Assembly (NCBI GenBank): GCA_945931735.1
Contig: CAMEPN010000011.1
Location: 1-15,786, forward strand
From: an uncultured Clostridia bacterium
GTDB taxonomy: Bacteria; Bacillota; Clostridia; Oscillospirales; Ruminococcaceae
Direction of reading: 5' to 3'
DNA length: 15,786 bases
Made by a program: the position numbers and the translations under genes. Within the stretch, counting starts at the first letter, position 1. Every line of letters starts with the position of its first letter. The notes beneath the pieces are model-generated. The model was given only the letters and a program-made list of their open reading frames with translations. It searched no databases and was not told the DNA's origin. This document shows, piece by piece, positions 1-15,434 of the stretch.

Positions 1-1
1 C

Positions 2-511
2 AATATAATGCTCGTCGCGGCGATGAACCCCTGCCCCTGCGGTAACTTCGGGAGCGCGAAGAAATGCACCTGCTCCCCGCAGAAGGTGAGCGCCTATCTC
101 GGCAAGATATCGCAGCCTGTTCTCGACAGGATAGATATACAGGTCGAGGTGAAGGCGGTGGAATATTCCGACCTTTCCGAGCGCACCCCGCAGGAAAGCT
201 CCGCCGCGATTGCCGAGCGGGTGCAGCGGGCGCGCGACATACAGGCGAAGCGCTTCGCGGGCACGGGGATAAAGGCGAACAGCGGGATAACTCCCGACAT
301 CATATCCGAGGTATGCCGACTGACGGACGGCGCGCAGCAGATGCTGAAAGACGCGTTCGGAAAACTCGGGCTGACCGCGAGGGCTTACGACAGGATACTT
401 AAGGTTGCGCGCACCTGCGCCGACCTCGACGGAAGCGAAGAGATACAGCGGCAGCATATCTCGCAGGCGATAAGCTTCAGAAGCCTGGACAGAAAATATT
501 GGAACAGATGA
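2..511 (+). CDS. comM: ComM/YifB-family Mg-chelatase-like AAA+ protein, C-terminal part (5' end outside window)
   Basis: This is the C-terminal third of a YifB/ComM-type protein. The frame is open to the left edge (AAT ATA before the first ATG at 8), so that ATG is internal and the true start lies upstream. Counting from it, the family motif NPCPCG (residues 7-12) is followed by a second Cys pair (C20, C22). Then come LDRIDIQVEV and a C-terminal helical domain with the typical run LTARAYDRILKVARTCADLD and a closing FRSLDR. ComM in Gram-negative bacteria is a hexameric branch-migration helicase used in natural transformation; the role of the clostridial homologue is less clear. The Walker motifs are not in the window. 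It ends 20 nt before the malQ start, on the same strand, so co-transcription is possible. Family assignment is firm; function in this organism is by homology. Confidence 0.9.
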   Translation, partial: NIMLVAAMNPCPCGNFGSAKKCTCSPQKVSAYLGKISQPVLDRIDIQVEVKAVEYSDLSERTPQESSAAIAERVQRARDIQAKRFAGTGIKANSGITPDIISEVCRLTDGAQQMLKDAFGKLGLTARAYDRILKVARTCADLDGSEEIQRQHISQAISFRSLDRKYWNR

Positions 512-531
512 GCCGAACAGGAGATGATTTT

Positions 532-2004: not shown

Positions 2005-2009
2005 TATAC

Positions 2010-2039
2010 AGCCGCACTGCCCCGCGGGGCGGCGCGGCT
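2010..2039 (+). other. Long G+C-rich hairpin between malQ and the pullulanase gene
   Basis: An outer stem AGCCGC/GCGGCT encloses the perfect palindrome GCCCCGCGGGGC, giving a nearly continuous stem with one mismatch and one G-T pair. It starts 6 nt after the malQ stop and ends 13 nt before the pullulanase ribosome site. Only a short T run (TTTA) follows, so it is a weak candidate for an intrinsic terminator. It may be a partial terminator or an mRNA-stabilising/processing element that sets the malQ to pullulanase ratio. The structure is seen in the sequence; the role is inferred. Confidence 0.4.
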
Positions 2040-2062
2040 TTACAGCAGGTGCGGAGGAAAAT

Positions 2063-4177
2063 ATGGCAGCGGTGCGCAGTAAATTCAAGGCGGCTGATAA
2101 GCTTGCTTTCGCGGGGGAGCTTGGCGCAGTATATTCGCGCGGCGGGACGGTGTTCCGCGTGTGGTCGCCGTCGGCGGAGCGGGTGGAGCTTCGGCTTTAC
2201 GAAAGCGGAACTGCCCCCGAGCCGTTCTTTTCGGCGGACATGAAAAAGATAGGCTGCGGGGCGTGGGAATATTCCCGAAGCGGCGATCTCGACGGGGTGT
2301 ACTATACCTATTCCGTCACGATAATGGGTACAACGCGCGAAACGGCGGACATCTATTCCGTATCGGCGAGCGCGGACGGTCAGCGCGGAATGGTCGCGGA
2401 TATGGAACGCGCTGCGCCCGACGGCTGGGAAAACATCGCTCCCGTGCGGCTGTCGTCGCCTGCGGACGCGGTAATTTACGAGCTTAGCGTGCGCGATTTT
2501 TCCATGGACGAAAGCGCTGATTTTACCCATAGGGGGAAATTTCTCGCCTTTTCGGAGAGCGGCGTGACGTGCGGCGGGAAGCCTGTCGGGCTTGAATATG
2601 TCCGCAGCCTTGGGGTCACTCATATTCAGCTGATGCCCGTGTTCGATTTCGAGAGCAATGGCGGGTATAACTGGGGCTATAACCCGCGGCTGATGATGGC
2701 GCCCGAGGGGACGTATTCCTCCGACCCGAACGACGGTCACGCAAGGATAAGGGAGCTTCGGCAGCTTATCATGGCGGCGCACGAAATGGGGCTTGGGGTC
2801 ACTGCGGACGTTGTGTATAACCACAGCTTTTCCGCCGACGAATCGCCGTTCGGGCGGACGTTCCCGCATTATTACTATCGCGGTTCGGGTAAATACTCCA
2901 ACGGCTCGGGCTGCGGCAACGAATTTGCGAGCGAGCGGAAAATGGCGCGAAAGTTCATTAAGGACAGCCTGTGCTTTCTCGCGCGGGAGTATAAGCTGGA
3001 CGGCTTTCGCTTCGACCTCATGGGGCTGCTGGACATTAAGACGCTTAACGAGTGCGCAGAGGCGCTGCGCGCGATAAATCCCGATATACTGCTCTACGGA
3101 GAGGGCTGGACGGGCGGCGCTTCGCCCATGCCCGAAAACCTGCGCGCGATGAAGAAGAACGCGCGCTCGGTGCCATGCTTCGCGATGTTCGGGGACGATT
3201 TCCGCGACGCGGTGAAAGGCTCGGTGTTCAATGCGCGGGACAGGGGCTATGTCAGCGGAGCGGCGGACACGGAGCGCGCCGAAATGATAAAATCGGGACT
3301 TGCGGGGGGAGTGTTCCACCCGGAAATAAATATCAGTAAAGAGCGGCGTTGGACGGACGATCCGCTTCACTGCATTAATTATGTCGAGTGCCACGACAAT
3401 CTTACCCGCGCGGACAAGCTCGCTCTGTCGATGCCCGAGGCGGACAAGGCGCGGCGCATTGCGGCGGACAGAATGGCGGCTGCGCTGGTGATATTCGCGC
3501 AGGGGATACCGTTCATTCAGGCGGGGCAGGAGTATCTGCGCTCAAAGCCGCTCGGCGAGGGCTTCGACGGGAACAGCTACTGCTCGCCGGACAGCGTAAA
3601 TTCACTTAAATGGAGCAAAATAATTGAAAACGCCGACACGGTCGAATATTACCGAGGGCTTATCGCGCTGCGGCGTAAATTCCCGCAGTTTAGATTAAGA
3701 ACATCGGACGAGATACGGTCGCAGCTCACGTTTGCCGACCTCGGCGGCGGTGCGTTTGCGGAGATGCCGGGCGGCGGGCTGGCGCTTTTCGTAAACCCGA
3801 CGGACGAGCCGCTGCGCGTTGTATTGGGCGGTGCGTGCGAAGTCTATGCGGACGCTGAGCGCGCTTCCGACGAGCCGATTTACAGGATAGACGATATCGC
3901 GCAGATCAGCCCCGTGAGCGTGCTGCTGGTGCGGAAAATAGCGCAGGAGCGGAAAATGAGAGAATATACTGTCACAAGGATAGTCGAGCCGGATTTCGGC
4001 TGCGAGGGGCTGCCCGAGGGCGGCGAGCGCATGGACGAGGTGCGGCTTCGCGGCGCGGACGGCGGCGAGCTTTTGCTTTCGGTGAGCGACGAGCTGTTGT
4101 ACAAAATGGGTGTCGACGAGGGCAGCAGAGTGCTGTCCGACGGAAAAAGCATTTTCACTATGGAGGAGCAGATATGA
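2063..4177 (+). CDS. pulA: Type I pullulanase-like glycogen debranching enzyme (CBM48 + GH13) with an extra C-terminal module
   Basis: An alpha-1,6-glucosidase expected to cut branch points of glycogen, pullulan or limit dextrins. No signal peptide is visible, so it is probably cytoplasmic. Order in the 704 residues: CBM48-like beta domain (about 20-110, GTVFRVWSPSAERVEL); pullulanase signature YNWGYNP (202-208); GH13 region I DVVYNH (249-254); region II GFRFDLMG with nucleophile D318; region III YGEGW with acid/base E347; region IV VECHDN with D445; and a C-terminal beta domain ending near ISPVSVLLVRK (615-625). The ATG at 2063 has GGAGG 5 nt upstream and matches the family start. About 75 further residues (from M632) follow without a stop and do not look like GH13; they are annotated separately. 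The frame overlaps the next gene by ATGA. Debranching activity is confident; pullulanase versus glycogen debranching specificity is not decided by sequence alone. Confidence 0.9.
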   Translation: MAAVRSKFKAADKLAFAGELGAVYSRGGTVFRVWSPSAERVELRLYESGTAPEPFFSADMKKIGCGAWEYSRSGDLDGVYYTYSVTIMGTTRETADIYSVSASADGQRGMVADMERAAPDGWENIAPVRLSSPADAVIYELSVRDFSMDESADFTHRGKFLAFSESGVTCGGKPVGLEYVRSLGVTHIQLMPVFDFESNGGYNWGYNPRLMMAPEGTYSSDPNDGHARIRELRQLIMAAHEMGLGVTADVVYNHSFSADESPFGRTFPHYYYRGSGKYSNGSGCGNEFASERKMARKFIKDSLCFLAREYKLDGFRFDLMGLLDIKTLNECAEALRAINPDILLYGEGWTGGASPMPENLRAMKKNARSVPCFAMFGDDFRDAVKGSVFNARDRGYVSGAADTERAEMIKSGLAGGVFHPEINISKERRWTDDPLHCINYVECHDNLTRADKLALSMPEADKARRIAADRMAAALVIFAQGIPFIQAGQEYLRSKPLGEGFDGNSYCSPDSVNSLKWSKIIENADTVEYYRGLIALRRKFPQFRLRTSDEIRSQLTFADLGGGAFAEMPGGGLALFVNPTDEPLRVVLGGACEVYADAERASDEPIYRIDDIAQISPVSVLLVRKIAQERKMREYTVTRIVEPDFGCEGLPEGGERMDEVRLRGADGGELLLSVSDELLYKMGVDEGSRVLSDGKSIFTMEEQI
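3945..3958 (+). promoter_or_regulatory. Internal ribosome-binding site and ATG inside the pullulanase frame
   Basis: AGGAG at 3945-3949 stands 6 nt before an in-frame ATG at 3956, just after the residues where the GH13 C-terminal domain would normally finish. The spacing is as good as that of the true starts in this window, so independent translation of the downstream 73 codons is plausible. Confidence 0.45.
3956..4177 (+). CDS. 73-residue module of unknown function, fused in frame to the pullulanase and possibly also made separately
   Basis: From M632 of the long frame the sequence changes character: MREYTVTRI, then EPDFGCEG, a central beta-rich stretch (MDEVRLRG, GELLLSVSD) and a C-terminal LYKMGVDEGSRV. 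It reads like a compact acidic beta domain and not a continuation of the GH13 beta-sandwich. It has its own ribosome site (3945-3949) and ends at the same TGA, with the next gene's ATG overlapping. Either it is a separate small gene whose upstream stop was lost, giving a fusion, or a natural C-terminal extension with an alternative start. I recognise no named family and assign no function. Nested in-frame coding is the reason for the modest confidence. Confidence 0.4.
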   Translation: MREYTVTRIVEPDFGCEGLPEGGERMDEVRLRGADGGELLLSVSDELLYKMGVDEGSRVLSDGKSIFTMEEQI

Positions 4178-5964
4178 CTGTACCCGAAAAAATCGGCGCG
4201 CGCAGAGGGCGTATGAACGAGCGCGGGATATACGCATACATTGTCTGCACGGAGGACTGCCACGGCTCGGAATACGTCGGGGAGCATTTTATGCTGCGCG
4301 AGTTCCTGTCGGGGTTCACAGGCTCGGCGGGTACGCTCGTCGTAACGGCTGACGAGGCGGCGCTCTGGACGGACGGGCGCTATTTCCTGCAGGCGGAGCA
4401 GCAGCTTCGCGGAAGCGGGATAGCGCTGATGAAATCGGGGGAGGAGGGCGTTCCGAGCATTGCGAAGTTCCTTGCGGAAAAAATGCCGGAAGGCTCCGTT
4501 CTCGGGTTTGACGGAAAAACCGTTCGCGCAAACATGGCGAGAACGCTCGAAAGGGAGCTTTCCGCGAAAAAGGTGACATTCTCCTTTTCGGAGGACATCG
4601 GCGGAATGGTCTGGGCTGACCGCCCGCCGCTTTCGGCGGAGCCTGTATACGCTCTGCCCGAAAAATACACGGGTCAGCCGCGTGCGGAAAAGCTGAAAAA
4701 TATCCGCGGGAAAATGAGCGCGGCGGGCGCGGACTGCCTTGCGGTCACGGCGCTGGACGAGATTGCGTGGACGCTTAATTTGCGCGGCAACGACGTTGAA
4801 TACAACCCTGTTTTCCTTGCGTATATGCTGATCTTTCAAGACCGAGCGGCGCTCTATGCAAACAGGGATATTTTCGGCGCGGAGATAATTTCGGGGCTGT
4901 CCGAGGACGGGATAGAGCTGTTGCCGTATGAGGATTTTTACGGAGCGGTTCGGGGGCTTGGCGGCGCGGTGATGTACGACCCGTCGGAGGTAAACTGCCT
5001 GTTCGATAAATCGCTCCCCGACGGGGTAAAGCGCGCTGAAATGCGCAGCCCGATAATGCTGATGAAGGCGGTGAAAAATGACGCCGAAATATCCTCGGAG
5101 CGCGCCGCGCATATCAAGGACGGCGTCGCGGTCACGAGGTTCATGTACTGGCTCAAGCACAACATCGGGCGCACACGTATCACCGAGATAAGCGCCGCAG
5201 AAAAGCTTGAGGAGTTCCGCAGGCAGGGTGAGGGCTACCTCGGGCAGAGCTTCGCGCCGATAATGGCATACGGCGCTCACGCCGCGATAGTGCATTATTC
5301 CGCGACGGAGGAGAGCAACGCGGAGCTGTCCGCAAGGGGAATGCTGCTGTCCGACACGGGCGGACATTATTACGAGGGGACAACCGACATAACGCGCACC
5401 TTTGTTCTCGGAGAGCTGACCGACGAGGAAAAGCGGGGCTTTACGCTGGTGCTGGCGGGGCATTTTAACCTTGCGGCGGCGAAGTTCATGTACGGCTGCC
5501 GCGGGGCGAACCTCGACTACACCGCGCGCGAGCCGCTGTGGAGATACGGCATGGACTTCAACCACGGCACGGGGCACGGCGTGGGATATCTGCTTAACGT
5601 CCACGAAGGTCCGAACAGGATACACTGGCGCATACGCCCGAATATGGCGGACTGCGTGCTCGAGGCGGGAATGATAACCTCGGACGAGCCGGGGCTTTAT
5701 GTCGCGGGGAAATTCGGCATACGCCACGAGAGCCTTGTCCTCTGCCGCGAAAGCGAGCGCACCGAGTACGGCAGGTTCATGGAGTTTGAAACGCTGACGA
5801 TGGTGCCGTTCGACCCCGACGGGGTTGACGCCGCGTATTTCTCCGACAGGGAGCTTGAGCGCTTCAACGCTTATCAGAAGCGGGTGTGCGACACGATAGC
5901 GCCGCTGCTCCCCGAAAACGAAGCGGAATGGCTCAGAGATATCACGAAGCCGCTTGTAAAATGA
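4174..5964 (+). CDS. pepP: Xaa-Pro aminopeptidase (aminopeptidase P, M24B metallopeptidase)
   Basis: Removes the N-terminal residue from peptides whose second residue is proline; a cytoplasmic dimetal enzyme used in peptide catabolism. At 596 residues it matches the long three-domain form (two creatinase-like N-terminal domains, about 15-135 and 165-310, then the M24 pita-bread domain), like eukaryotic cytosolic aminopeptidase P, rather than the roughly 440-residue E. coli form. Predicted metal ligands are all present: D394 (LLSDTGG), D405 (TTDITRTF), H468 (HGTGHG), E505 (SDEPGLY) and E539 (FETLT). H477 in NVHEGP is the expected extra active-site His. The ATG overlaps the preceding TGA (ATGA) with AGGAG 5 nt upstream, implying translational coupling. 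Its link to glucan degradation appears to be only shared transcription. The transcript ends at the hairpin after 5990. Confidence 0.95.
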   Translation: MTVPEKIGARRGRMNERGIYAYIVCTEDCHGSEYVGEHFMLREFLSGFTGSAGTLVVTADEAALWTDGRYFLQAEQQLRGSGIALMKSGEEGVPSIAKFLAEKMPEGSVLGFDGKTVRANMARTLERELSAKKVTFSFSEDIGGMVWADRPPLSAEPVYALPEKYTGQPRAEKLKNIRGKMSAAGADCLAVTALDEIAWTLNLRGNDVEYNPVFLAYMLIFQDRAALYANRDIFGAEIISGLSEDGIELLPYEDFYGAVRGLGGAVMYDPSEVNCLFDKSLPDGVKRAEMRSPIMLMKAVKNDAEISSERAAHIKDGVAVTRFMYWLKHNIGRTRITEISAAEKLEEFRRQGEGYLGQSFAPIMAYGAHAAIVHYSATEESNAELSARGMLLSDTGGHYYEGTTDITRTFVLGELTDEEKRGFTLVLAGHFNLAAAKFMYGCRGANLDYTAREPLWRYGMDFNHGTGHGVGYLLNVHEGPNRIHWRIRPNMADCVLEAGMITSDEPGLYVAGKFGIRHESLVLCRESERTEYGRFMEFETLTMVPFDPDGVDAAYFSDRELERFNAYQKRVCDTIAPLLPENEAEWLRDITKPLVK

Positions 5965-5990
5965 AAATGCGCAGCTTTTTCGACAAACTG

Positions 5991-6029: not shown

Positions 6030-7007
6030 TTATTCAAACGCTTTCTTAAGCTCGCTAAAGCTTATTTCTCCGGAAATATTCTGTATCTGAATTGCGCCCG
6101 AGATGATTTTGAAGAAGAAATCGGATATATTTTCGACAGTCAGTTCTTCCGATTTTTCGCCGTCGGATCTCGTCAGAGAATATACCTTGAGGATCTGGCT
6201 GTTTAATGCGCCCGCTCCGATAAGGAAGTGGTTTTCCAGCTTGTCGAAATCGATAAGATCCGCGACAAGCAGTCTTCCCGAAACAGAGTAGCTGTTTACG
6301 GTAGTTGTCGAACCGTCGTCGTCCACGAGCACTGTTCTTTGATGGTCGTCCTCAAGATCCATTTTTATTTTTCCGGTGTTCTCGCCCTCCGGATCACCCT
6401 TGAACAGCGCGCCCAGATGAGCCATTGAGATGTTATACAGCTCCGTCCCGGGCAGGAACGAAAGCGGCTCTATGGAAAATGCCGCCGGATAAAGCATATA
6501 GTTGACGCCGGACAGCTCTACGCTCGGCGCGTTGAACGTTCCGAAAATGCAGTTGGTGATCGTCAGATTTTTTGTGGCAAATACTCCGCCCAGAACAACG
6601 CAGTTTTCAAGATAAACCTCTGCGCCGAAAACGCTTCCTCCGATATAGCAGTTTTTAAGCCTTACCGACGGTGAATTTACATCGGAGCCGAAAATGACCT
6701 TTCCGGACGATACCAAAGCCGCAATGCTTTCTGCGCTTGCCGCCGCCTTGACAAACTTGATCCTGCCCGACATTGAAGTGCTTATATGAAGCTCTTTGTT
6801 TGCAAAGACTGCGCCCTTGAACACGACGTCGCCGTTGTCTATGCTGATCGTATTGCCAAATACACTTCCCTCAAAAATGGTGTTGGATTCGATTTTTATA
6901 TTTCGTTTCAGATCCTTTGAACCCTTCGGCAGGACGCTTGTTTTGACAATATTATCCTTAAGGAAAAGATCATTGTCATCAAACCTGATTTCGTTTAAAG
7001 TTTCCAT
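6030..7007 (-). CDS. Beta-helix, bactofilin-like protein; last gene of the SPFH operon
   Basis: The function is unknown. The 325-residue protein has a repetitive centre (about 38-165) in which the short motif G-[SAG]-V-F-[GA] recurs: GSVFG (47), GAVFA (65), GSVFG (124), GGVFA (140), plus related KVIFGS (103) and CIFGTF (153). Each is followed by a short beta-like stretch such as TISID, LHIST, VYLEN or LTITN. Spacing of 16-18 residues per turn fits a right-handed beta-helix such as bactofilin/polymer-forming domains, though I cannot prove that family. A C-terminal domain (about 210-325) looks globular. No signal peptide or membrane segment is seen. An upstream in-frame ATG (7163) would sit inside the previous gene. 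The ATG at 7007 has AGGAGG 5 nt before it and follows the previous stop by 22 nt. It may supply a self-assembling cytoskeletal element to the operon's complex; that is inference. Confidence 0.88.
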   Translation of the reverse strand: METLNEIRFDDNDLFLKDNIVKTSVLPKGSKDLKRNIKIESNTIFEGSVFGNTISIDNGDVVFKGAVFANKELHISTSMSGRIKFVKAAASAESIAALVSSGKVIFGSDVNSPSVRLKNCYIGGSVFGAEVYLENCVVLGGVFATKNLTITNCIFGTFNAPSVELSGVNYMLYPAAFSIEPLSFLPGTELYNISMAHLGALFKGDPEGENTGKIKMDLEDDHQRTVLVDDDGSTTTVNSYSVSGRLLVADLIDFDKLENHFLIGAGALNSQILKVYSLTRSDGEKSEELTVENISDFFFKIISGAIQIQNISGEISFSELKKAFE

Positions 7008-7018
7008 TTGATCCTCCT
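7008..7018 (-). promoter_or_regulatory. Ribosome-binding site that fixes the start of the beta-helix gene
   Basis: On the minus strand AGGAGG (7013-7018) lies 5 nt before the ATG at 7007. This decides against the longer frame from 7163, whose first 52 residues are out-of-frame reading of the upstream gene's 3' end. Confidence 0.9.
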
Positions 7019-7029
7019 GATTTGAGTAT

Positions 7030-8091
7030 TTACACCTGTTTAAGCCCTGCACAGTCGGCTTTCCACATTCTGCATATTTCGGTATATATGCGCTCCTGAT
7101 ATTCGTTGTAATCGCCTGTGCTTGAATAACTATCCTGTACCATGCTTGTAAACGCCTGATCAATAAGTTTCATTTCCTCGTTCGGGATCGCTTTCGGTTC
7201 AACGCCGTTTCTTTCGCCGACGTAGGAATATACGGATGCGAGAATACCCTCCTTGTTCGCGTTGTCGGATACATAGCATTTGCAGACGTTGTGTGCGTCT
7301 GCAATATCCTCCGCAACGAAATACGCAACAGGAATATATGAGAGCTGCTGTTCTTCGCTGACGCTTTTGTTCCATAATATGTCACGCATCGTGTGGCGAT
7401 ACAAAAGATTGTTATGCAGAGAGTCCGCCAAATTCTGAAGTACTACCGAAACCTTCCGGCGCAGACCTGCGACCGCGATATTGCCGCTGTTATTGCTTCC
7501 GGAGCCTAGCCGGTCGGCTGTTTCCGCTGCTGACGATAGATGAGGCTTGATGACGACTTCCTCTCTGACCTTCTTGCTGAGCCTGAATGCGGGCTTATTG
7601 ATCTCGGTAATTCGCCTTTCAAGCTCCTTGTCCAATTCATTAAACACCTTGCCGAACTTTGCGCGTTCCCTCTCGACATCTGTCAGCATTCGATTATGCT
7701 TGTCCTGAACAGCCTTTGAATGCTCGAGCAGCAACGCGGATTTCGTCTGGATAACCGTGTTGTTTTCCGCTTTTTTTGTTGAAATATCGTTTTGGACAAG
7801 GTTATAAAACCCTTTGATAATGCTGTCGGATATCTGATCGGAGCACTGCGCGATAGCAGCGCAGTTTGCCGTATTCATCGCCGCAACAGACGCTGTAAGT
7901 CCGTCGACGCACAGGCTTGCGTCGCTGACGCTTTTGTCGAAGGGTTCGGTCGCAACGGTAACATCAAATCTTATCGGAACATTTTGCTCATAAAACACAG
8001 TCCTTGACCCGCCGCTTTCGCTTGGAGGGTAGGAAACGCTGACAGAACCGGTGACATTTATAGATGAAGAATAGCTTCTTGTGTAACTCAT
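7030..8091 (-). CDS. Helical protein of unknown family, paralogue of the preceding operon gene (copy B)
   Basis: I do not recognise this 353-residue protein. It has a Ser/Val-rich beta-like N-terminus (1-45), a central helical, coiled-coil-prone region (about 85-180: KGFYNLVQNDIS, LLLEHSKAVQDKHNRM, ELDKELERRITEINK), a short Ser/Gly/Asn linker (about 195-205), then a second helical stretch and the motif SYIPVAYF (251-258). It is clearly related to the gene just upstream: KGFYNL, ALLLE, L-D-K-x-L-x-x-R-I and YIPV occur in the same order with similar spacing. No signal peptide or membrane segment is seen, so it is probably cytosolic. The start at 8091 overlaps the upstream TGA by one base (TGATG) with AGGAGG 6 nt before it. 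A TTG two codons earlier is less likely. Tight coupling suggests fixed stoichiometry with its paralogue, possibly a heteromer (inference). Confidence 0.88.
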   Translation of the reverse strand: MSYTRSYSSSINVTGSVSVSYPPSESGGSRTVFYEQNVPIRFDVTVATEPFDKSVSDASLCVDGLTASVAAMNTANCAAIAQCSDQISDSIIKGFYNLVQNDISTKKAENNTVIQTKSALLLEHSKAVQDKHNRMLTDVERERAKFGKVFNELDKELERRITEINKPAFRLSKKVREEVVIKPHLSSAAETADRLGSGSNNSGNIAVAGLRRKVSVVLQNLADSLHNNLLYRHTMRDILWNKSVSEEQQLSYIPVAYFVAEDIADAHNVCKCYVSDNANKEGILASVYSYVGERNGVEPKAIPNEEMKLIDQAFTSMVQDSYSSTGDYNEYQERIYTEICRMWKADCAGLKQV

Positions 8092-8103
8092 CAGCAACCT
8101 CCT
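8089..8103 (-). promoter_or_regulatory. Ribosome site and TGATG stop/start overlap coupling the two paralogues
   Basis: Minus-strand AGGAGG (8098-8103) lies inside the last codons of copy A, 6 nt before the ATG (8091-8089) that shares its A with the TGA stop (8093-8091). This junction favours translational coupling and supports ATG 8091 over TTG 8097. Confidence 0.85.
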
Positions 8104-8996
8104 AGCTGAAACAGCCGCATCATCTGCTCGGCAACCCTTTGGTCAAGCGAAGATGACGCAACAAGAGCCTGAAATTCATCTGAGATAGTTTTCCTCTCAA
8201 AATCATCCTTCTGATCGTTTGCGCATATTTCGTCTTGATTAAGGATATTCAAGCTGATATTGTTTTTTATCTGTTCGGGAAGATATTCGGGATAGTTTAG
8301 ACTGAACACATAAGTATCGGTAACAAGGGTGCTTTGCTTTGAGGCATATACAACGGGAATATATTCTTCCTGCTTGATCTCGGAGCTTGATTTGTCCAGC
8401 ATAGCTTCCATAAGCGACTTATAAACATGGTTTTCGCTGACCTTGTTTGCAAGGAAATCCAGCGAGTGGTCTGTTTTATCCTTTATTCTCGAGGTGACGA
8501 TCTCCTGATCGGATATATCGACCTCTGCGGACGTCAGAACTGCTTCGGGGACATGGCGCTCAAACATACCCATGGTAACTTTTTTTCTCGTTTCGGAGAT
8601 ATCTACCGCGGCTTTGTCCAATTGAGATATGCGGTTTGAAAGCGCCTTGTCAAGTCCCTTGAAAATATGTCTGTACTGCCCTTTTACGCGGTTATAATCG
8701 CTTTCCATGCGCTCTTGGGTCTTTGCCAATGTTTTGCCGTATTCCAGAAGCAGAGCCAGCTTCGCCTGCATTTCCGTATAGCATACGGAAAGCTTCATCG
8801 AAATCTGTGAGTGGATAAGATTGTAAAAACCCTTGTCGACGTTTTCGCATATTTTATTTGCCGACTGCTTCTCTGACGCAATAACGGCTGCCTGCATTGC
8901 GACTACTGCGGCGGTCGTTGCAGTGAGATGCTGCGACACGGTCGATACTGATTCCGCCATGGGGTTTGTATCTACTACAATATTAAAATCAGCCAT
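8091..8996 (-). CDS. Helical protein of unknown family, paralogue of the next operon gene (copy A)
   Basis: A 301-residue protein with no family I can name. After a short beta-like start (MADFNIVVDTNPM) there is an Ala/Val/Thr-rich helix (about 24-45), then KGFYNLIHSQIS (55-66), a long helical, coiled-coil-prone region (about 75-140, with ALLLEYGKTL and GLDKALSNRISQLDK) and EEYIPVVYAS (210-219). These landmarks match copy B in order, but copy A lacks the roughly 40-residue Ser-rich N-terminal extension. No signal peptide or clear membrane segment is present. The ATG lies 6 nt after the stop of the large membrane protein gene, with GGGGAG inside that gene's end serving as ribosome site. Possible roles are a scaffold or adaptor at the membrane with the SPFH protein; this rests on context only. 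Confidence 0.88.
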   Translation of the reverse strand: MADFNIVVDTNPMAESVSTVSQHLTATTAAVVAMQAAVIASEKQSANKICENVDKGFYNLIHSQISMKLSVCYTEMQAKLALLLEYGKTLAKTQERMESDYNRVKGQYRHIFKGLDKALSNRISQLDKAAVDISETRKKVTMGMFERHVPEAVLTSAEVDISDQEIVTSRIKDKTDHSLDFLANKVSENHVYKSLMEAMLDKSSSEIKQEEYIPVVYASKQSTLVTDTYVFSLNYPEYLPEQIKNNISLNILNQDEICANDQKDDFERKTISDEFQALVASSSLDQRVAEQMMRLFQLGGC

Positions 8997-9002
8997 AATT
9001 TG

Positions 9003-10907
9003 TCACTCCCCGCATTCAACAGCAGCCGCGTCGGTTTTTTCAAGACTTACCACGTTAGGCTGTCCGATAGCGCCGTTTACTTTCTGCACCAGATCTGTCT
9101 GTATGCTGTCGAAAACTTCCGGATTTATCATAGGCTCGGGAAGAAGTACGGCATTGTCGGCAACATATGGGCTTACTCCGACAAGATTTCTGCGGCGTCT
9201 GTCAAGGGCGTGAAGATCGGAGAACGCAACCGCCGTTTCATGCGCCATAGAATCTCTGAGCGAGCCTTCGTAGTATTCGATATATTCGAATTGCCGCGTG
9301 CTTTCGTCTATGCTGTCATTTATCCTGTCCATAAATTCCGCAAACGCTTCCTGCTGCTGATTGCACTGCGAAGCCTGAGCCTCGAAGCCTGCGATCATTT
9401 CCGCCTGAGCCTCGGTTTCCTTTACCTCGCTGTCGTCAGTGCTGCCGCTCTGTTTCATTGCGGAGCTGGTATTGATAAGAGATTGATACATATTATATGC
9501 GTTCATGTAATCCGCATAGGTTTCGCGCATATGAGTAATAAGCTCGTCTGCTGTCTTGCGGTTATCTCTGAAATAATTGCCGATCTCTGTTTTCCATCTG
9601 TCGACATACATTCTCTTCTGATCGTCAATGTTATTGTATATCTTCATTCTCTCGATCTTGTTTTCTTCCATAAGCGCGGCGATGACCGGCATGAAGATCT
9701 CTTCATCTATCTGATGCATACCGAACGGCATTGATGTTCTTGAGCCGTCCTCGGCTATCCAGCTGTCTGAAAACAGCTCGTACTTGACGACGGAGCTTGC
9801 TTTAAGAGCAAACGGGGAATAGTCGTTTGCCGCGGTATGGTAGTCGAAGATGTTTTCGGAGCGCACTCTTTCGATCTCCTCTGCTTCAAGCGTAGGGGAA
9901 TACTGGGTAAATCCCGCCTTGAGCACCAGATTGAATATCGAAGAGGTATAATTGGTAAGCTTGCTCTGAGATGACAGCTTGGTTTTGGTAAGAAGCTGTA
10001 CGGAATCGGCAAGGCGCCTCATAAGGCGCTTTATGTATTCGTTGCTGTCCGAATCTCCGGTGTTCTTTATCTGATCCTTAAGCGCGTTAAGCGAAGCGAA
10101 CTTAGCAAGGCGGTCGTCGAAGGATACATCGAATACCTTTACAACATTATGAGAGCCGGTGTCAGTGGTGGAATAATCGCGGAGATATTCTGCGTCTTTG
10201 CTGCCGGGGCTTATGACAGGGATCCTTACGGAAGCGTTGTTGCTGTCACCGAGGAGATAGCTTATATTTCTGACCTGCCTGTCTATGCTGCCCATATAAT
10301 CATACAGGGTGATGTTCTGGATAGAGGTAGAATAATCCGAGGTATTGACCGTTTCCGTCATAGTATTGTCTTCCACGACCGGCAGCTTATCCAGCGTGTC
10401 GGACAGCTGCTGAACAGAGCTTTGGAAGTCGTCGGGCTGATTTAGTACGGTAAGGTTAAAATCGGTCTCCTCGACAGAACCGGTGTGATCCAGAACGATG
10501 CTCTTGTCCTCAAACGGAACTCTTGTTGCAACGGGAACATACACAACGCCGATTTTATTGACCTTGTACTCTCTGCGAATATTCCTGTATCTTTCGTCGC
10601 ACTGAATAATAAGTCCATCGAACCTTTCGACCTCGTCTTTGCATTTGAAGTACTTTACGAGATACACGATGCCGATTACGATCGTAACAATAAGGAAAAA
10701 CAGCGCGAACATTACGATCGCAATGGTCTTTGACTTGTTTCTGACAGCGATCATCTCATCGCGCTGCCTGATGAGGTCGGCTTTGTTCTGTTCCTCCGCG
10801 ATTTCCGCGGCAACAATGGTTTCGGCGGCAGCCTTATAGTAATCAAACAGGATTTTTGCTTGATCCTGATAAATATTAGAAGATTCCTTGAAGATCTTGC
10901 CCGTCAT
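9003..10907 (-). CDS. Large single-pass membrane protein with long helical regions, unknown family
   Basis: A 634-residue protein of unknown function. Residues 1-58 form a charged amphipathic helix; one clear membrane segment follows (about 61-85, TIAIVMFALFFLIVTIVIGIV). After it come a charged helix (86-115) and VNKIGVVYVPVATRVPFED (116-134), whose YVPV resembles the YIPV motif of the two downstream paralogues. The rest (150-634) is hydrophilic and mostly helical, with charged coiled-coil-prone stretches around 420-480 and 500-570 and a proline-containing tail. Basic residues flank the membrane segment on both sides, so topology is not decided; there is no cleavable signal or lipobox. The gap to the upstream gene is 16 nt, with AGAGGAA as a moderate ribosome site. 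It may be the membrane anchor of the operon's complex (inference from order and motif sharing). Confidence 0.87.
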   Translation of the reverse strand: MTGKIFKESSNIYQDQAKILFDYYKAAAETIVAAEIAEEQNKADLIRQRDEMIAVRNKSKTIAIVMFALFFLIVTIVIGIVYLVKYFKCKDEVERFDGLIIQCDERYRNIRREYKVNKIGVVYVPVATRVPFEDKSIVLDHTGSVEETDFNLTVLNQPDDFQSSVQQLSDTLDKLPVVEDNTMTETVNTSDYSTSIQNITLYDYMGSIDRQVRNISYLLGDSNNASVRIPVISPGSKDAEYLRDYSTTDTGSHNVVKVFDVSFDDRLAKFASLNALKDQIKNTGDSDSNEYIKRLMRRLADSVQLLTKTKLSSQSKLTNYTSSIFNLVLKAGFTQYSPTLEAEEIERVRSENIFDYHTAANDYSPFALKASSVVKYELFSDSWIAEDGSRTSMPFGMHQIDEEIFMPVIAALMEENKIERMKIYNNIDDQKRMYVDRWKTEIGNYFRDNRKTADELITHMRETYADYMNAYNMYQSLINTSSAMKQSGSTDDSEVKETEAQAEMIAGFEAQASQCNQQQEAFAEFMDRINDSIDESTRQFEYIEYYEGSLRDSMAHETAVAFSDLHALDRRRRNLVGVSPYVADNAVLLPEPMINPEVFDSIQTDLVQKVNGAIGQPNVVSLEKTDAAAVECGE

Positions 10908-10923
10908 ATCATTTTCCTCTTTC

Positions 10924-11634
10924 TTAACGCATATTTTTCCGTTCTCTGTAAAGAGCGTCGAAATTTCTGAATTTGCTTTCTAACGAGTCTGTGGAGCCTT
11001 TTTCTTCGGAAGCGAAATAGCTGTCCATAATAATGCTGTCCAGAACAGCGAGCATTCTGCGTTCGATATCATGCGCGTCGTCTGTATTGCCCGGAGAAAG
11101 GTACTGCATATCATCAGCAATTTTTTCCGCGCCGGCGCGTATGCTGCTGCCCTTATCAAGTCCGGCGGCAATCGCCGCAAGCTTGCGCGATCTGCTTCTT
11201 AACTCCATAACGGGCGATTTCTTGATTTCCTCGTCACGAAGAGAGGATTCTATATGGTCTTTTGTGACGATTGCCATGAGGAGCCATACAACAAAAACAA
11301 ATACTGCAACGCTCTGAATTACTATCGCGACGCTGAGCGGAATAAGGGTAAACGCAAGGGCGATGTCCGCGATAGAGATAATGCCGTATATCGTTAAGCC
11401 CTTGTAGTATACGGCTCCGCTTGCGGCGATTGTTGCTACCCCGCCCTTAAACGAGCCGAATACGATCGGCAGAAATACAGCGAGATAAAGCAGAGAAACA
11501 CTGACGCAGGAAAAAATATATTCCCCCCGGAAGTATACGAACAGCGGGCTGAGCATAACGAATGCAAAAGCCAGAACAGCTATTCCCAGTATAAACAGTA
11601 TCAGACCGACAGCAAAATATTCACGCTTTTTCAT
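10924..11634 (-). CDS. Small polytopic membrane protein with helical cytosolic tail, unknown family
   Basis: This 236-residue protein has about four membrane segments in its first half (near 7-29, 39-60, 80-99 and 100-123). Behind them is a hydrophilic, largely helical tail (about 125-236) rich in charged residues (DHIESSLRDEEIKK, ELRSRSRKLAAI, LESKFRNFDALYRERKN), probably cytosolic by the positive-inside rule. I do not recognise a named family. It starts 15 nt after the SPFH gene, with GGGAGG just before the ATG. SPFH proteins of the YdjI type work with small membrane partners (YdjG/YdjH in Bacillus subtilis); this gene is in the corresponding position, though I cannot show homology. A role in docking the SPFH protein to the membrane is therefore a guess from context. 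Confidence 0.88.
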   Translation of the reverse strand: MKKREYFAVGLILFILGIAVLAFAFVMLSPLFVYFRGEYIFSCVSVSLLYLAVFLPIVFGSFKGGVATIAASGAVYYKGLTIYGIISIADIALAFTLIPLSVAIVIQSVAVFVFVVWLLMAIVTKDHIESSLRDEEIKKSPVMELRSRSRKLAAIAAGLDKGSSIRAGAEKIADDMQYLSPGNTDDAHDIERRMLAVLDSIIMDSYFASEEKGSTDSLESKFRNFDALYRERKNMR

Positions 11635-11649
11635 AATGCCTCCCAGCTG

Positions 11650-12837
11650 TTATTGCAGCTTATTGCCGCATATAGGGCAGAACTTAACACCGAACTGAAC
11701 AGGGTTATGGCACTTGGAGCAGACATTGTCCGAAACGTTATTCGTTGTAAGGACAGAGCCGCAGGTCACACATCTTGTTGATTTGGGCGAATTATCCGCT
11801 CCGCACATCGGGCAGGGATTGTATTTGTTTCCGCAGTGGGGGCAAAAAGCGGAGTCCGCCGAGAATTTCTTGCTGCAATTCGAGCAGAAAATTTCCTTAC
11901 GAACTATTCTTTGATTTGGAGCGGCGCCGAAATTCTGACCCGCTTGGTTTTGCCCGTAAAATTGATATTGATTTTGAGGGGGCGTTTGCATCATCGCGCC
12001 GCCCATAGTGTTATTGCCCGAAAAAGCGCCTGTCATCATTGCAACGCCGAGTATACCCATCGAGGAACCGCTGTTGACGGCGTTTCCCGCAACATCAAAG
12101 GACTGCTTCTGCTGCCATGTATATCCCGCGATAGCCTGTGCGGAGCGGTCGGACATTGCCTCGGAGATCTTTCTTCCCTCCTGCGTAGAGGTGTCGAGAT
12201 TGACCTCCGTTATATAAAAGCCCTCGAGGTTGAAGCCGTATTCCTCCCAAAATTCCGACATCGGCTGCTTGATGAATTTGGACAGATCGTCCAGATGCAT
12301 GGCTATGCTGTTTATACCGACGCGATTTGCGTTCATGAATGCAATTATTGAAGAATTTGTTTTGGCTATCATTGCGCCTTTGAAATGATCCGTAAGCTCT
12401 TTTGCCGTGAAGCTCTGCATCGTACCGACCAATTTCACGAGAAAACGCTCTGCGTCAGTTACTTTAAGACCGTATCTTCCCTTTGCGATAAGCGGAAGCA
12501 TCTGTCCGTAATCGGGGTCCATAAACCTCATGGTAGTTGTCGTCCAGTCTATGTTGAGCGGCGCTGTCTTGTTTACGAACCACACCTCCGCCATGAAAGG
12601 ATTTCTGCCTCCAAAGGGTATACCGAACAGATTTCTCAGCAAAGGAAGATTTTGGGTGGAGAGAGTATGCGAGCCGGGTCCGAATTTGCCGAGTATTTGC
12701 CCCTTCGAGAAAAAAACCGCCTCCTGCGACTCATGCACGATAAGCTGAGTGCCTGTGCTCAGATTGCTCTGCGGGAAACGGTGAGCAAATTCGGCGTTGT
12801 TTTGGGGTGACCATTCGACCATATCAATGAAAGCCAT
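11650..12837 (-). CDS. SPFH (band 7) domain protein with three C-terminal zinc ribbons, YdjI/COG4260-like
   Basis: A membrane-scaffold type protein and the head of the six-gene operon. Residues about 25-220 carry the YdjI-type SPFH domain (LIVHESQEAVFFSKGQILGKFGPGSHTLST, NPFMAEVWFVNK, RYGLKVTDAERFLVKLVG, GFYITEVNLDT). A Gly/Met/Ala and Asn/Gln-rich low-complexity linker follows (about 255-310). Then come six CxxC pairs (C318/C321, C332/C335, C342/C345, C356/C359, C373/C376, C387/C390), which make three zinc-ribbon modules. There is no N-terminal membrane anchor. In B. subtilis the homologue YdjI acts with membrane proteins YdjG/YdjH to bring PspA to the membrane under envelope stress; here no pspA is seen, and different partners follow. 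The start has AGGAGG 7 nt upstream and the gene lies about 97 nt from a perfect promoter. Domain calls are confident; the pathway is inferred. Confidence 0.93.
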   Translation of the reverse strand: MAFIDMVEWSPQNNAEFAHRFPQSNLSTGTQLIVHESQEAVFFSKGQILGKFGPGSHTLSTQNLPLLRNLFGIPFGGRNPFMAEVWFVNKTAPLNIDWTTTTMRFMDPDYGQMLPLIAKGRYGLKVTDAERFLVKLVGTMQSFTAKELTDHFKGAMIAKTNSSIIAFMNANRVGINSIAMHLDDLSKFIKQPMSEFWEEYGFNLEGFYITEVNLDTSTQEGRKISEAMSDRSAQAIAGYTWQQKQSFDVAGNAVNSGSSMGILGVAMMTGAFSGNNTMGGAMMQTPPQNQYQFYGQNQAGQNFGAAPNQRIVRKEIFCSNCSKKFSADSAFCPHCGNKYNPCPMCGADNSPKSTRCVTCGSVLTTNNVSDNVCSKCHNPVQFGVKFCPICGNKLQ

Positions 12838-12839
12838 AA

Positions 12840-12905
12840 TTATTCCTCCTCATAACATAGAAAAAAGGCAGAATTGATTGCCCTGAGTTTTTTCACATTT
12901 TTCAT
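12840..12905 (-). other. Possible leader ORF (21 codons) in front of the SPFH gene
   Basis: Within the predicted leader an ATG at 12905 opens a 21-codon frame (beginning MKNVKKLRAI, ending FFLCYEEE) whose TAA stops 2 nt before the SPFH ATG. The SPFH ribosome site AGGAGG lies inside its last codons. A weak 6-bp stem around GGCA/TGCC (12865-12870 with 12879-12884) followed by a U run (12861-12864 and on) lies in the same stretch, resembling an attenuator. No ribosome site is seen before the small ORF, so chance is quite possible. Confidence 0.25.
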
Positions 12906-12940
12906 GGTTTTAATATAAAAAATGCTGTATTTCGACCTTT

Positions 12941-12969
12941 ATTATACTGCTTTTTACTGATATTGTCAA
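12941..12969 (-). promoter_or_regulatory. Perfect-consensus SigA promoter of the six-gene SPFH operon
   Basis: On the minus strand TTGACA (12964-12969) and TATAAT (12941-12946) are separated by exactly 17 nt. Transcription should begin near 12934, giving a leader of about 97 nt before the ATG at 12837. A match to both hexamers with ideal spacing predicts strong, housekeeping-sigma-driven expression unless a repressor or leader element limits it. Confidence 0.9.
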
Positions 12970-13110: not shown

Positions 13111-13144
13111 AAAAAGAAATCCCCTCTGCTTTCGCAAAGGGGAT
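13111..13144 (-). terminator. Intrinsic terminator of the tRNA-Thr transcript
   Basis: Read leftwards, an 11-bp stem (ATCCCCTTTGC with GCAGAGGGGAT, one G-U pair) closed by a GAAA tetraloop is followed by TTCTTTTT. It lies about 8 nt after the tRNA 3' end and isolates the tRNA from the SPFH operon promoter. Confidence 0.95.
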
Positions 13145-13151
13145 CATCTTT

Positions 13152-13227
13152 TGGAGCTGCTAATCAGATTCGAACTGATGACCTCATCCTTACCAAGGAT
13201 GTGCTCTACCAACTGAGCTATAGCAGC
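13152..13227 (-). tRNA. tRNA-Thr, anticodon GGU, with encoded CCA
   Basis: The minus strand folds into a standard cloverleaf: 7-bp acceptor GCTGCTA/TAGCAGC, D arm with GCTCAGTTGGTAGAGC, anticodon stem CATCC/GGATG around loop TTGGTAA (anticodon GGT at loop positions 3-5) and T arm with GTTCGAATC. Discriminator T is followed by encoded CCA (13152-13154). It reads ACC and ACU threonine codons. It has its own promoter and terminator, so it is a monocistronic unit. Confidence 0.97.
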
Positions 13228-13242
13228 TTCACAACATAAAAG

Positions 13243-13293
13243 ATTATACCACAATAAATTTGATTTGTCAATACCTTTTTTAAAAAATTTTTT
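13243..13293 (-). promoter_or_regulatory. Perfect SigA promoter with A-tract UP-like element for tRNA-Thr
   Basis: Minus-strand TTGACA (13266-13271) and TATAAT (13243-13248) are 17 nt apart, starting transcription near 13236, about 9 nt before the tRNA. Just upstream (13276-13293) lies AAAAAATTTTTTAAAAAA, in the position of an UP element. Such a combination is expected for a stable-RNA gene. The same A/T block follows the mnmM stop directly and lacks a G+C stem, so it is not a terminator. Confidence 0.92.
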
Positions 13294-13295
13294 AT

Positions 13296-13871
13296 TTACA
13301 TATCTTTAAGAATGATAACGGGGATAGGCGGGCAGTTTGTCCTGTTCACGAACGGCATTTCTATGACGGTGTATTTTTTGCTGTCGATCGTCGGGAGGAA
13401 CTCAAGCAGCGCGTCGCGCTCCTCGAAGCCGGTTTCTCTGCCGTAGTAGATTATCAGCGTCATTATCCCGCCGCTTTTCAGCAGACGAAGCCCCTGCTCT
13501 ATCGCGGCGATCGAGCTTGTTTTGTCGGTGAAAATATTATGGTCGCCGCCGGGGAGCCACCCGAAATTGAAGGTTATGCAGGACACTGTGCCCTCGGCGA
13601 AAAGGCTGCCCATCTCGCTGTGGCTTTTCAGCAGCACATCGGCGCGGTGGGAAACGCCGTTCTGCTCGAGCAGCGCACGCGTGCTGTCCACTGCATCCTG
13701 CTGGATATCGAACGCGGTGACGTGACCGCTGTCGCCGACGAGCTGCGAAAGGAGCAGCGTGTCGTTTCCGCGGCCGGCTGTGGCGTCGATGCAGATGTCG
13801 CCCTCGCGGACGGACTCGGTAATAATGCGGCGGATTATGTTCAGCGCGCTGAACGACGGTCTGTTATCCAT
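13296..13871 (-). CDS. mnmM: tRNA 5-aminomethyl-2-thiouridine methyltransferase (MnmM/YtqB family)
   Basis: A SAM-dependent methyltransferase of the YtqB family, shown in Bacillus to methylate the wobble uridine of tRNA (nm5s2U to mnm5s2U). At 191 residues it is the usual size. The SAM-binding motif I is DATAGRGNDT (29-38), the acidic end of beta 2 is FDIQQDAV (54-61), and the family's diagnostic motif reads FNFGWLPGGDH (101-111). The C-terminal strand carries PFVNRTNCPPIPVI (173-186). The ATG at 13871 overlaps the end of the upstream CBS gene by 8 nt, so the two are co-transcribed and probably coupled; GGAGCGG about 7 nt before is an acceptable ribosome site. No stem-loop terminator follows, so some transcription may continue into the tRNA. 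Older annotation would call it rRNA methylase. Confidence 0.9.
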   Translation of the reverse strand: MDNRPSFSALNIIRRIITESVREGDICIDATAGRGNDTLLLSQLVGDSGHVTAFDIQQDAVDSTRALLEQNGVSHRADVLLKSHSEMGSLFAEGTVSCITFNFGWLPGGDHNIFTDKTSSIAAIEQGLRLLKSGGIMTLIIYYGRETGFEERDALLEFLPTIDSKKYTVIEMPFVNRTNCPPIPVIILKDM

Positions 13872-14289
13872 TGCGTTCCGCTCCGTTTCCGATATATTCG
13901 TCGATGAAATAGCGTATTATTTTCTGCCGCGTAACTATCCCCACGAAAAAATCGCGGTCATCCACTACGGGAATAAAGCTCTGATTTATCGAGCGCTCAA
14001 AAAGCTCGTTCATGGAGATGTTGACATGGACGCAGGGATTAAAGCCCGGGCGGACGATGTCGCTTATCAGCATTTTTTCCTTGTCCTTCATGCTGTTGTT
14101 TTCGCTGTCGATAAGGCTGCGCAGAAAGTCGCCCTCGGTCACCGTTCCGTAATATGTATTATCCCGCGTCAGCACGGGGATCGCGGTGTAGCCGTGCGCT
14201 CGGAATTTTTCAAGACCCTGACGGATAGTATTGTCGCTGTAAATATATGCCACCTGCATTTTGGGCATTATCATTGAGATTATGTTCAT
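13864..14289 (-). CDS. Protein with two CBS domains (stand-alone CBS pair)
   Basis: A 141-residue protein made almost only of a CBS pair (about 5-60 and 78-131), the module that senses adenosine nucleotides or similar ligands in larger proteins. Each repeat shows the usual pattern: YTAIPVLTRDNTYYGTVTEGDFLR (34-57) and QSFIPVVDDRDFFVGIVTRQKI (103-124). Stand-alone pairs bind AMP, ATP, c-di-AMP or Mg-ATP in different bacteria; the ligand cannot be told from sequence. A longer frame begins at 14343, but the ATG at 14289 has GGGAGG just upstream, lies about 36 nt after the predicted transcription start, and opens with the domain itself. It shares a transcript with mnmM, overlapping it by 8 nt; I see no established functional link between the two. 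Confidence 0.92.
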   Translation of the reverse strand: MNIISMIMPKMQVAYIYSDNTIRQGLEKFRAHGYTAIPVLTRDNTYYGTVTEGDFLRSLIDSENNSMKDKEKMLISDIVRPGFNPCVHVNISMNELFERSINQSFIPVVDDRDFFVGIVTRQKIIRYFIDEYIGNGAERNG

Positions 14290-14331
14290 ATGTTCCTCCC
14301 GAAAAACGAAAGAAATTGGTTTTATAGATTT

Positions 14332-14360
14332 ATCATACCACATAGCGTCCGTAAAGTCAA
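14332..14360 (-). promoter_or_regulatory. Extended -10 SigA promoter of the CBS-mnmM operon
   Basis: Minus-strand TTGACT (14355-14360), a 17-nt spacer and TATGAT (14332-14337) preceded by TGG, forming an extended -10. Predicted start near 14325, about 36 nt before the CBS ATG. Confidence 0.85.
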
Positions 14361-14398
14361 TGATTGCGGTGTGAGATTTTTAAGAAAACACGCGGGGC

Positions 14399-14435
14399 AA
14401 AAAAGGTCACCCTCACAGATAAGTGAGAGCGACCT
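14399..14435 (-). terminator. Intrinsic terminator of the SDR gene
   Basis: Read leftwards, AGGTCGCTCTCAC pairs with GTGAGGGTGACCT over 13 bp (two G-U pairs) around a TTATCT loop, followed by TTTTT. It lies about 28 nt after the SDR stop and separates it from the CBS promoter. Confidence 0.94.
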
Positions 14436-14463
14436 GTAAATTATTATATTATTTGACAGCTTA

Positions 14464-15264
14464 TCACCATGTGCGGGACTTCATTTCCTTGAACTGACCA
14501 ACTGTCGTGGTGTGAGCATTCAGACCGCCGTCGACGGTAACGACCTGACCCGTGAAATACTCGCTCTCGTCGGAAGCAAGGTAAACGCACATATTTGCGA
14601 TATCTGCGGGGCAGCCGTAACGGTTTACCATGATGTTGTTGAGGAAGATGTCCTTAAGCACCTGAGGAACATGAGCCTCGTTGTCGGGCGTTACGATAAG
14701 GCCGGGGCGAACGCAGTTGCAGCGGATATTTTCCTTGCCGTACTGCAATGCGGTGTATTCCGTCAGCTTGTCGATACCCGCCTTTGCGCAAGCATATGCG
14801 GTGGAGCCGAGGTCGCCGCTGCACGACGCCATGGAGCCGATGTTGATTATGGAGCCGCCCTTGTTTTCCTTCATGTAGGGAAGAACGCTCTTGATAGCGT
14901 AGAATGTGCCGCGGATATCGCTCTGGAAGATAGCGTCCCACATCTCGAGGGTCAGCTCGTCAACGCGGCCGTCCTTTAACGCAACGTTAGCGGCGTTGTT
15001 TACCAGAATGTCGATTTTGCCGTACTTATCGGCGGTGTCCTTGAGCAGGGCGTCGATGCTGTCGGTCTGCGTGATATCCATGAAGTGGTACATAGCCTCT
15101 CCGCCGTTGCTTACGATGCTGTCTACAACAGCCTGTCCCTTTGTTTCGCGGCGGCCGCAGACTACTACCTTCGCGCCCTCTGCCGCGAACATCTGCGCGA
15201 TGCCGACGCCGATACCGCTTGTAGAACCGGTTACTATCGCTACTTTACCCTTTAATCTGTCCAT
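14464..15264 (-). CDS. Short-chain dehydrogenase/reductase (classical SDR)
   Basis: A 266-residue NAD(P)-dependent oxidoreductase of the classical SDR type. The cofactor motif is TGSTSGIG (12-19), with CGRRE after beta 2 (36-40), whose arginines hint at NADP(H). The structural NNAA motif is at 89-92, the catalytic triad is S144, Y157 and K161 (YACAK), and the C-terminal VDGG is at 244-247. The substrate is unknown: the KLTEYTALQYGKENIRCN stretch and length resemble glucose-1-dehydrogenase-like and hydroxysteroid dehydrogenase-like SDRs of gut clostridia, but this is not enough to assign one. The frame is open to 15318, but ATG 15264 has AGGAGG 8 nt upstream and begins at the domain. It is monocistronic, with its own promoter (about 170 nt upstream), a long structured leader and a strong terminator. 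It contains no membrane segment. Confidence 0.94.
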   Translation of the reverse strand: MDRLKGKVAIVTGSTSGIGVGIAQMFAAEGAKVVVCGRRETKGQAVVDSIVSNGGEAMYHFMDITQTDSIDALLKDTADKYGKIDILVNNAANVALKDGRVDELTLEMWDAIFQSDIRGTFYAIKSVLPYMKENKGGSIINIGSMASCSGDLGSTAYACAKAGIDKLTEYTALQYGKENIRCNCVRPGLIVTPDNEAHVPQVLKDIFLNNIMVNRYGCPADIANMCVYLASDESEYFTGQVVTVDGGLNAHTTTVGQFKEMKSRTW

Positions 15265-15434
15265 TGTAATGTCCTCCTTAAATTTTTCGGCTTCCGCGGT
15301 GGCTCCCCTTTTTCGCATGAAGAGGGAAAGGCGCAGTTCCGTATTATTGTTGTGAATGTTTTCTCAATCTTTTGCAGACATGAGAAAAGTTTTTAAATTT
15401 GAACCCATACCTTGATTTTCTGTATGGGCTTTAT
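15265..15434 (-). promoter_or_regulatory. Long structured 5' leader of the SDR gene
   Basis: The predicted transcript starts near 15434, leaving about 170 nt before the ATG. It holds two clear inverted repeats: CCCATAC/GTATGGG (15404-15410 with 15422-15428, extendable by a G-U and an A-U pair) at the extreme 5' end, and TTTTCTCA/TGAGAAAA (15359-15366 with 15381-15388). I cannot match it to a known riboswitch, and it has no evident terminator stem with a U run. The dyads may be RNA hairpins or DNA operators. Confidence 0.45.

Follow-up and report, generated by a model that had tools for sequence, protein, structure and literature searches.

A conserved six-gene operon of Bacillota joining an SPFH/zinc-ribbon protein to membrane, helical and putative beta-helix proteins

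Nearest described systems and layout of the locus

SPFH proteins serve as membrane organisers in every domain of life. To judge from the accessible text of the sources cited here, the described system nearest to the locus reported below is the pspA-ydjGHI operon of Bacillus subtilis. In the available part of PMC8581546, YdjI is described as soluble, with an SPFH domain and a C-terminal zinc finger, and, like PspA, it needs YdjG and YdjH for recruitment to the membrane; the available part of PMC11237479 assigns a TPM domain to YdjH, and zinc ribbons and an NTF2-like domain to YdjG. The latter text also discusses PadR-HAAS-Toastrack genes for PspA-free neighbourhoods and proposes a beta-helix-type cytoplasmic protein with membrane partners as an assembly platform.

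The window (the whole 15,786-nt stretch of DNA analysed, from an uncultured Clostridia bacterium) contains a six-gene minus-strand operon at 12837-6030, its genes called A to F (Table 1). The first-pass annotation had proposed such an operon with one perfect promoter and one terminator, and all of these elements were recovered: the six ORFs start with ATG in this reading, are separated by 15 (A-B), 16 (B-C), 6 (C-D), -1 (D-E) and 22 nt (E-F), and lie between a full-consensus promoter-like site and a terminator-like stem. The genes preceding the convergent pepP-like gene were read, from translations alone, as comM, malQ and pul. A second promoter-like site was seen next to the tRNA-Thr gene.

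Table 1. Positions of the operon genes and neighbouring features in the window
Feature	Position	Strand	Description
Promoter-like site TTGACA-17-TATAAT	12969-12941	minus	12/12 consensus matches, sigma-70-type
Gene A	12837-11650	minus	395 aa; SPFH (Band_7_1) and C-terminal zinc ribbons
Gene B	11634-10924	minus	236 aa; membrane protein, 3 or 4 hydrophobic segments and C-terminal tail
Gene C	10907-9003	minus	634 aa; N-terminal hydrophobic block, then conserved, mostly helical domain
Gene D	8996-8091	minus	301 aa; helical, paralogue of E
Gene E	8091-7030	minus	353 aa counted from the ATG overlapping the D stop; predicted N-terminal beta-hairpin, then very long helix
Gene F	7007-6030	minus	325 aa; hexapeptide/beta-helix-like N-terminal part by eye and weak Pfam matches
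Terminator-like stem	6023-5995	minus	13 pairs and T run; between operon and convergent pepP-like gene
Aminopeptidase-P-like gene (pepP-like)	4174-5964		convergent, downstream of operon; name from reading of translation
tRNA-Thr	13152-13227		upstream of operon
Second promoter-like site	13243-13271		12/12 matches, TG before the -10 hexamer; directly upstream of tRNA-Thr

Among the six proteins, A alone could be assigned clearly to a family. It matched the Pfam model Band_7_1 (E 1.6e-38; 132.9 bits against a cut-off of 24), which is also matched by the control genome of B. subtilis, and it carries Pfam zinc ribbons. A membrane segment is absent by hydropathy, and a low-complexity linker precedes the C-terminal ribbons. 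Twelve cysteines are invariant in the window and the seven other loci described below (8/8), which is enough for three ribbons. This is the architecture given for YdjI in the available text, and the YdjI-type label first applied to A is retained on that comparison of architecture. Flotillin and HflK/C share with A the SPFH domain, which is expected to oligomerise; unlike them, A has zinc ribbons and, by hydropathy, no membrane anchor of its own. Elsewhere in the same genome, a second SPFH/zinc-ribbon protein (contig C178, L029 1782-3110; Band_7_1, 69.7 bits), 21.7% identical to A, is encoded between genes read as ABC-transporter-like and thymidylate-kinase-like. On contig C149 (L030 120-1256), a frame reads as HflK/C-like, with Band_7_1 below the cut-off (19.9 bits), and is followed by two frames resembling serine recombinases.

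As far as pspA-ydjGHI is covered by the accessible sources, membrane proteins are added in both operons, whereas the partners themselves differ. PspA is missing from the six-gene operon, as had been noted (no PspA_IM30 match in the six proteins); B to F have no TPM, NTF2-like or zinc-ribbon Pfam match at E 1 or better; and three extra families (C, D/E and F) are present. PspA was likewise not found in the window's own assembly. Its absence says little, because that assembly is 70% complete and PspA is sparse, exceeding the cut-off in 10/59 genomes of the order and being present in one of the seven other carrier genomes. The likeness to Toastrack systems consists of one locus (L008), in which a PadR-HAAS-Toastrack operon adjoins the module divergently from A, and of the beta-helix-type platform with membrane partners proposed in the available text. 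In contrast, F did not match Toastrack at E 1 or better, and PadR, HAAS and PspC families were not above cut-off in any of the six proteins. No description of this operon was found in the literature searched, in which coverage of subscription journals and preprints is thin.

Conservation, distribution and neighbourhoods of the module

A profile of C was scanned against a genome collection of 84,980 species and returned seven other loci, a lower bound because the scan depends on two short peptide patterns. The carriers are an uncultured Clostridia bacterium, two Oscillospiraceae, an uncultured Butyrivibrio, a Lachnospiraceae, an uncultured Clostridiales and Lactimicrobium massiliense Marseille-P4301, a named strain (L009). 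The arrangement A-B-C-D-E-F is identical in order and strand in 7/7 of these loci, within varied surroundings. With the window included, the D-E overlap, of 1 or 4 nt, is present in 8/8 loci, and the remaining intergenic gaps measure 2-72 nt. Identity to the window spans 52-91% for A, 23-63% for B, 52-87% for C, 32-81% for D, 32-72% for E and 56-88% for F. B is the least conserved of the six in the alignment of eight; its L008 copy was missed by tblastn and assigned by position and alignment (23% identity). The five more distant loci retain 52-57% identity in C and 56-67% in F, and even in the most distant one A, C and F are 52-56% identical to the window. For each of the 15 protein pairs the distances are correlated (r 0.75-0.97, permutation fraction <=0.005), which is not specific, since any genes with a shared history would diverge together.

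Protein searches at E 1e-3 or better revealed at least 1418 clusters for C, 77 for E and at least 784 for F. For C and F, 8000 candidates were scored and the best 120 clusters of each were compared: their longest-contig sizes coincide exactly 30 times, against a jittered expectation of 0.5. The six genes form a real conserved unit. Loss of gene order or separate distribution of the families, looked for as evidence against a common system, did not occur, and with the order kept in 8/8 loci and nothing describing it in the literature searched, the view of the locus as an undescribed system stands.

The promoter-like site upstream of A has 12/12 matches also in L003 and L004 and weaker counterparts (9-10 matches) in L005, L006, L007 and L009; none was found upstream of A in L008. 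In L007 (18-167), two tRNA genes (Phe and Gly) lie just upstream of A, comparable with the tRNA-Thr of the window; in the other six loci a tRNA near A was not found.

In overlapping samples of whole genomes, C occurs in 1/197 genomes of the family, 1/295 of the order and 1/391 of the class, and F in 1/398 of the phylum sample, the window's own genome each time. In L008, an Oscillospiraceae locus, C shares 52% identity with the window and is no closer to it than C of Butyrivibrio and Lachnospiraceae (56-57%), although the close named relatives of the window's C (P0009 and P0017) are from Oscillospiraceae. One relative of F (P0317) comes from a Spirochaetota assembly. A genome of the same genus (G1253) is colinear with window positions 1-5965 (82%) and 13140-15277 (85%), and its frames beyond pepP read as biotin genes. 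The module coincides almost exactly with a lineage-specific interval, which fits its gain or loss as a unit; G1253 is not a clean empty site, because its two flanks lie on different contigs. In the 15-19 kb fetched around pepP from same-genus genomes, A to F were not found in any of the six. On G1253 contig C12 (L023 8997-12721), the matches of the malQ-like gene and of the pul-like gene are each split in two, suggesting a shifted frame, probably through an assembly fault. An integrase-family frame lies ~130 bp upstream of A in L005, and phages, plasmids and viral contigs gave no match to C. The module is patchily distributed and possibly horizontally moved.

The neighbours include envelope-signalling genes in 3/7 loci. 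Besides the Toastrack operon of L008, ABC transporter and two-component genes flank the module on both sides in L004. In the Butyrivibrio locus (L005, 3-6235 and 13966-19613), the module sits between Ser/Thr kinase genes, whose products carry PASTA domains, a solute-binding domain or an FHA domain (one protein each), and a radical-SAM gene and zinc-ribbon proteins (ribbons by eye) also surround it. Among the neighbours looked at in the remaining 4/7 loci, no envelope-signalling gene was found. Such genes are common in Bacillota, and the count is only a hint of a link to envelope signalling.

Features of the membrane, helical and beta-helix-like proteins

Searches of Pfam, NCBIfam, PADLOC and PHROGs with B to F gave nothing convincing, and hhalign comparison of profiles gave no homology for C with B, D, E or F, for B with A, D or E, or for A with F. 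By hydropathy, hydrophobic segments occur only in B and C. Of the three hydrophobic blocks of B, the last could accommodate two segments, which makes the four segments assigned to B in the first-pass annotation plausible rather than shown. Its residues 103-152 bear a sub-threshold resemblance to PspB (E 0.02 in Pfam, 0.22 in NCBIfam) and to PspC (0.22), which does not recur at E 0.01 in the eight B proteins; the PspB-like stretch would suit an envelope role.

For C, no convincing Pfam family emerged among 63 members; one of them gave a weak Ribosomal_L12 match, and three relatives (P0112, P0115 and P0120) carry long acidic C-terminal tails. The uncharged N-terminal stretch is shorter than 30 residues in 29/63 relatives, the window included, and totals 34-45 residues in 33/63, enough for a two-helix hairpin; in L008 (1/63) none was found by the same criterion. 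The domain that follows is well conserved in both length classes and should occupy the same side of the membrane in each. Both classes would be better explained by a hairpin or re-entrant insertion that leaves the main domain cytoplasmic than by one crossing. The 'single-pass' topology proposed for C is doubtful. The structural model of C is poor (pLDDT 58.7, pTM 0.24); its helix is broken at residues 69-72, inside the hydrophobic region (local pLDDT ~80), a break that hairpin-type sequences in the alignment may cause.

Homology between D and E extends over almost the entire length of both (hhalign probability 100, E 1.4e-49), as their designation as paralogues implied. The model of E (mean pLDDT 78.0, pTM 0.28) contains a beta-hairpin at residues 3-46 and a 121-residue helix at 49-169 (pLDDT mostly 78-95), ~180 angstroms long at 1.5 per residue; it gave no fold match. 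A match of D to Zea_mays_MuDR (22.7 bits against a curated cut-off of 20.8) was taken as chance. The suggestion that the paralogues replace PspA found no detectable relation behind it: when they were aligned by hhalign to a profile built from nine PspA proteins, the probabilities were 0.5 and 0.2.

The length of F hardly varies (323-332 aa in eight loci). Its N-terminal part looks beta-helix-like by eye, and weak hexapeptide-type matches were obtained for 5/8 members (best E 4.7e-4); the repeat signal in this part is no stronger than in the rest of the protein, so the beta-helix is weakly based. As for bactofilins, 2/8 members match (best E 0.0091) and the window's F does not at E 1 or better; against a profile of 12 bactofilins the probability was 1.3, and F has an extra C-terminal part of ~145 residues. 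The bactofilin likeness is at most a resemblance. One relative (P0282) is 444 aa long, with an added tail of zinc-ribbon Pfam domains that ties F to the ribbon theme of A.

A possible membrane-associated scaffold and its alternatives

We hypothesize, with middling confidence, that the products of the six genes assemble around the SPFH/zinc-ribbon protein into a scaffold associated with the membrane on its cytoplasmic side. The SPFH domains of A would oligomerise, and B and C would tether A, itself without a membrane segment, to the membrane. C would insert a hairpin (or one helix) and carry long helical rods, while D and E, made side by side from overlapping genes, would form a pair of rods. 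F may provide a beta-helix-type platform or polymer, and the zinc ribbons would dock partners. The weakest step is the function: by analogy with pspA-ydjGHI of B. subtilis, the module likely organises or protects the membrane, with other partners. An envelope-stress role is plausible; the sigma-70-type promoters at the module give no sign of stress control.

Several observations point to such a scaffold: the six-gene synteny, the constant D-E overlap and the shared longest-contig sizes of C and F; the SPFH domain and invariant cysteines of A, with hydrophobic blocks confined to B and C; the long helix in the E model and the ribbons of P0282; and, in the available text, the dependence of YdjI on YdjG and YdjH for membrane recruitment (PMC8581546). 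The envelope-signalling neighbours add a hint, which is weakened by the four loci that have none and by how widespread such genes are; the poor C model also weakens the reading. The membrane-anchored scaffold of the first-pass annotation survives as the most economical account of one conserved system, shorn of D and E as PspA substitutes and of F as a bactofilin.

The module might instead serve some other membrane machine (for transport, secretion or proteolysis) as its membrane-bound assembly chaperone or regulator, with the SPFH assembly as an enclosure, as HflK/C encloses FtsH. The accessible parts of two papers favour this, describing a bacterial SPFH relative that forms a 24-mer with a lid (PMC10936438) and proposing that band-7 partners of PspA act like chaperones (PMC11237479); however, the inspected neighbours in the seven loci include no recurrent client gene, and we regard this reading as unlikely. 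A cytoskeletal or cell-shape element, in which F and the C/D/E rods polymerise and A and B are the membrane anchor, would agree with the near-constant length of F, its weak bactofilin and hexapeptide-type matches and the long helices in the E and C models. It appears distinctly unlikely in view of the bactofilin profile comparison, and the patchy distribution argues against a basic shape function.

That same patchiness, the exact lineage-specific interval against G1253 and the integrase-family frame in L005 are what a defence or conflict module, moved between genomes as a cassette, might leave behind. PADLOC, however, gave one insignificant match for the six proteins (B, E 0.94), nuclease, NTPase or toxin domains were not recognised in B to F, and C is without a match in phages, plasmids and viral contigs, so that defence seems very improbable. 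Returning to the scaffold, its boldest form is an undescribed membrane-attached supramolecular machine composed of an SPFH assembly, a hairpin-anchored rod protein, a pair of ~180-angstrom rods and a beta-helix polymer, spread as a six-gene cassette between Bacillota (F at least also reaching a Spirochaetota assembly); this we put forward tentatively, as possible and somewhat unlikely.

Together, our results describe a block of genes that stays together, its order unchanged, across gut bacteria of quite different kinds, distant Bacillota included. Five of its six proteins are without a convincing family in the libraries searched. The building partners of SPFH proteins in bacteria are poorly known, and here they are fixed by strict six-gene synteny. 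With Lactimicrobium massiliense Marseille-P4301 as a carrier, how an SPFH/zinc-ribbon protein is built into an assembly without PspA becomes directly testable.
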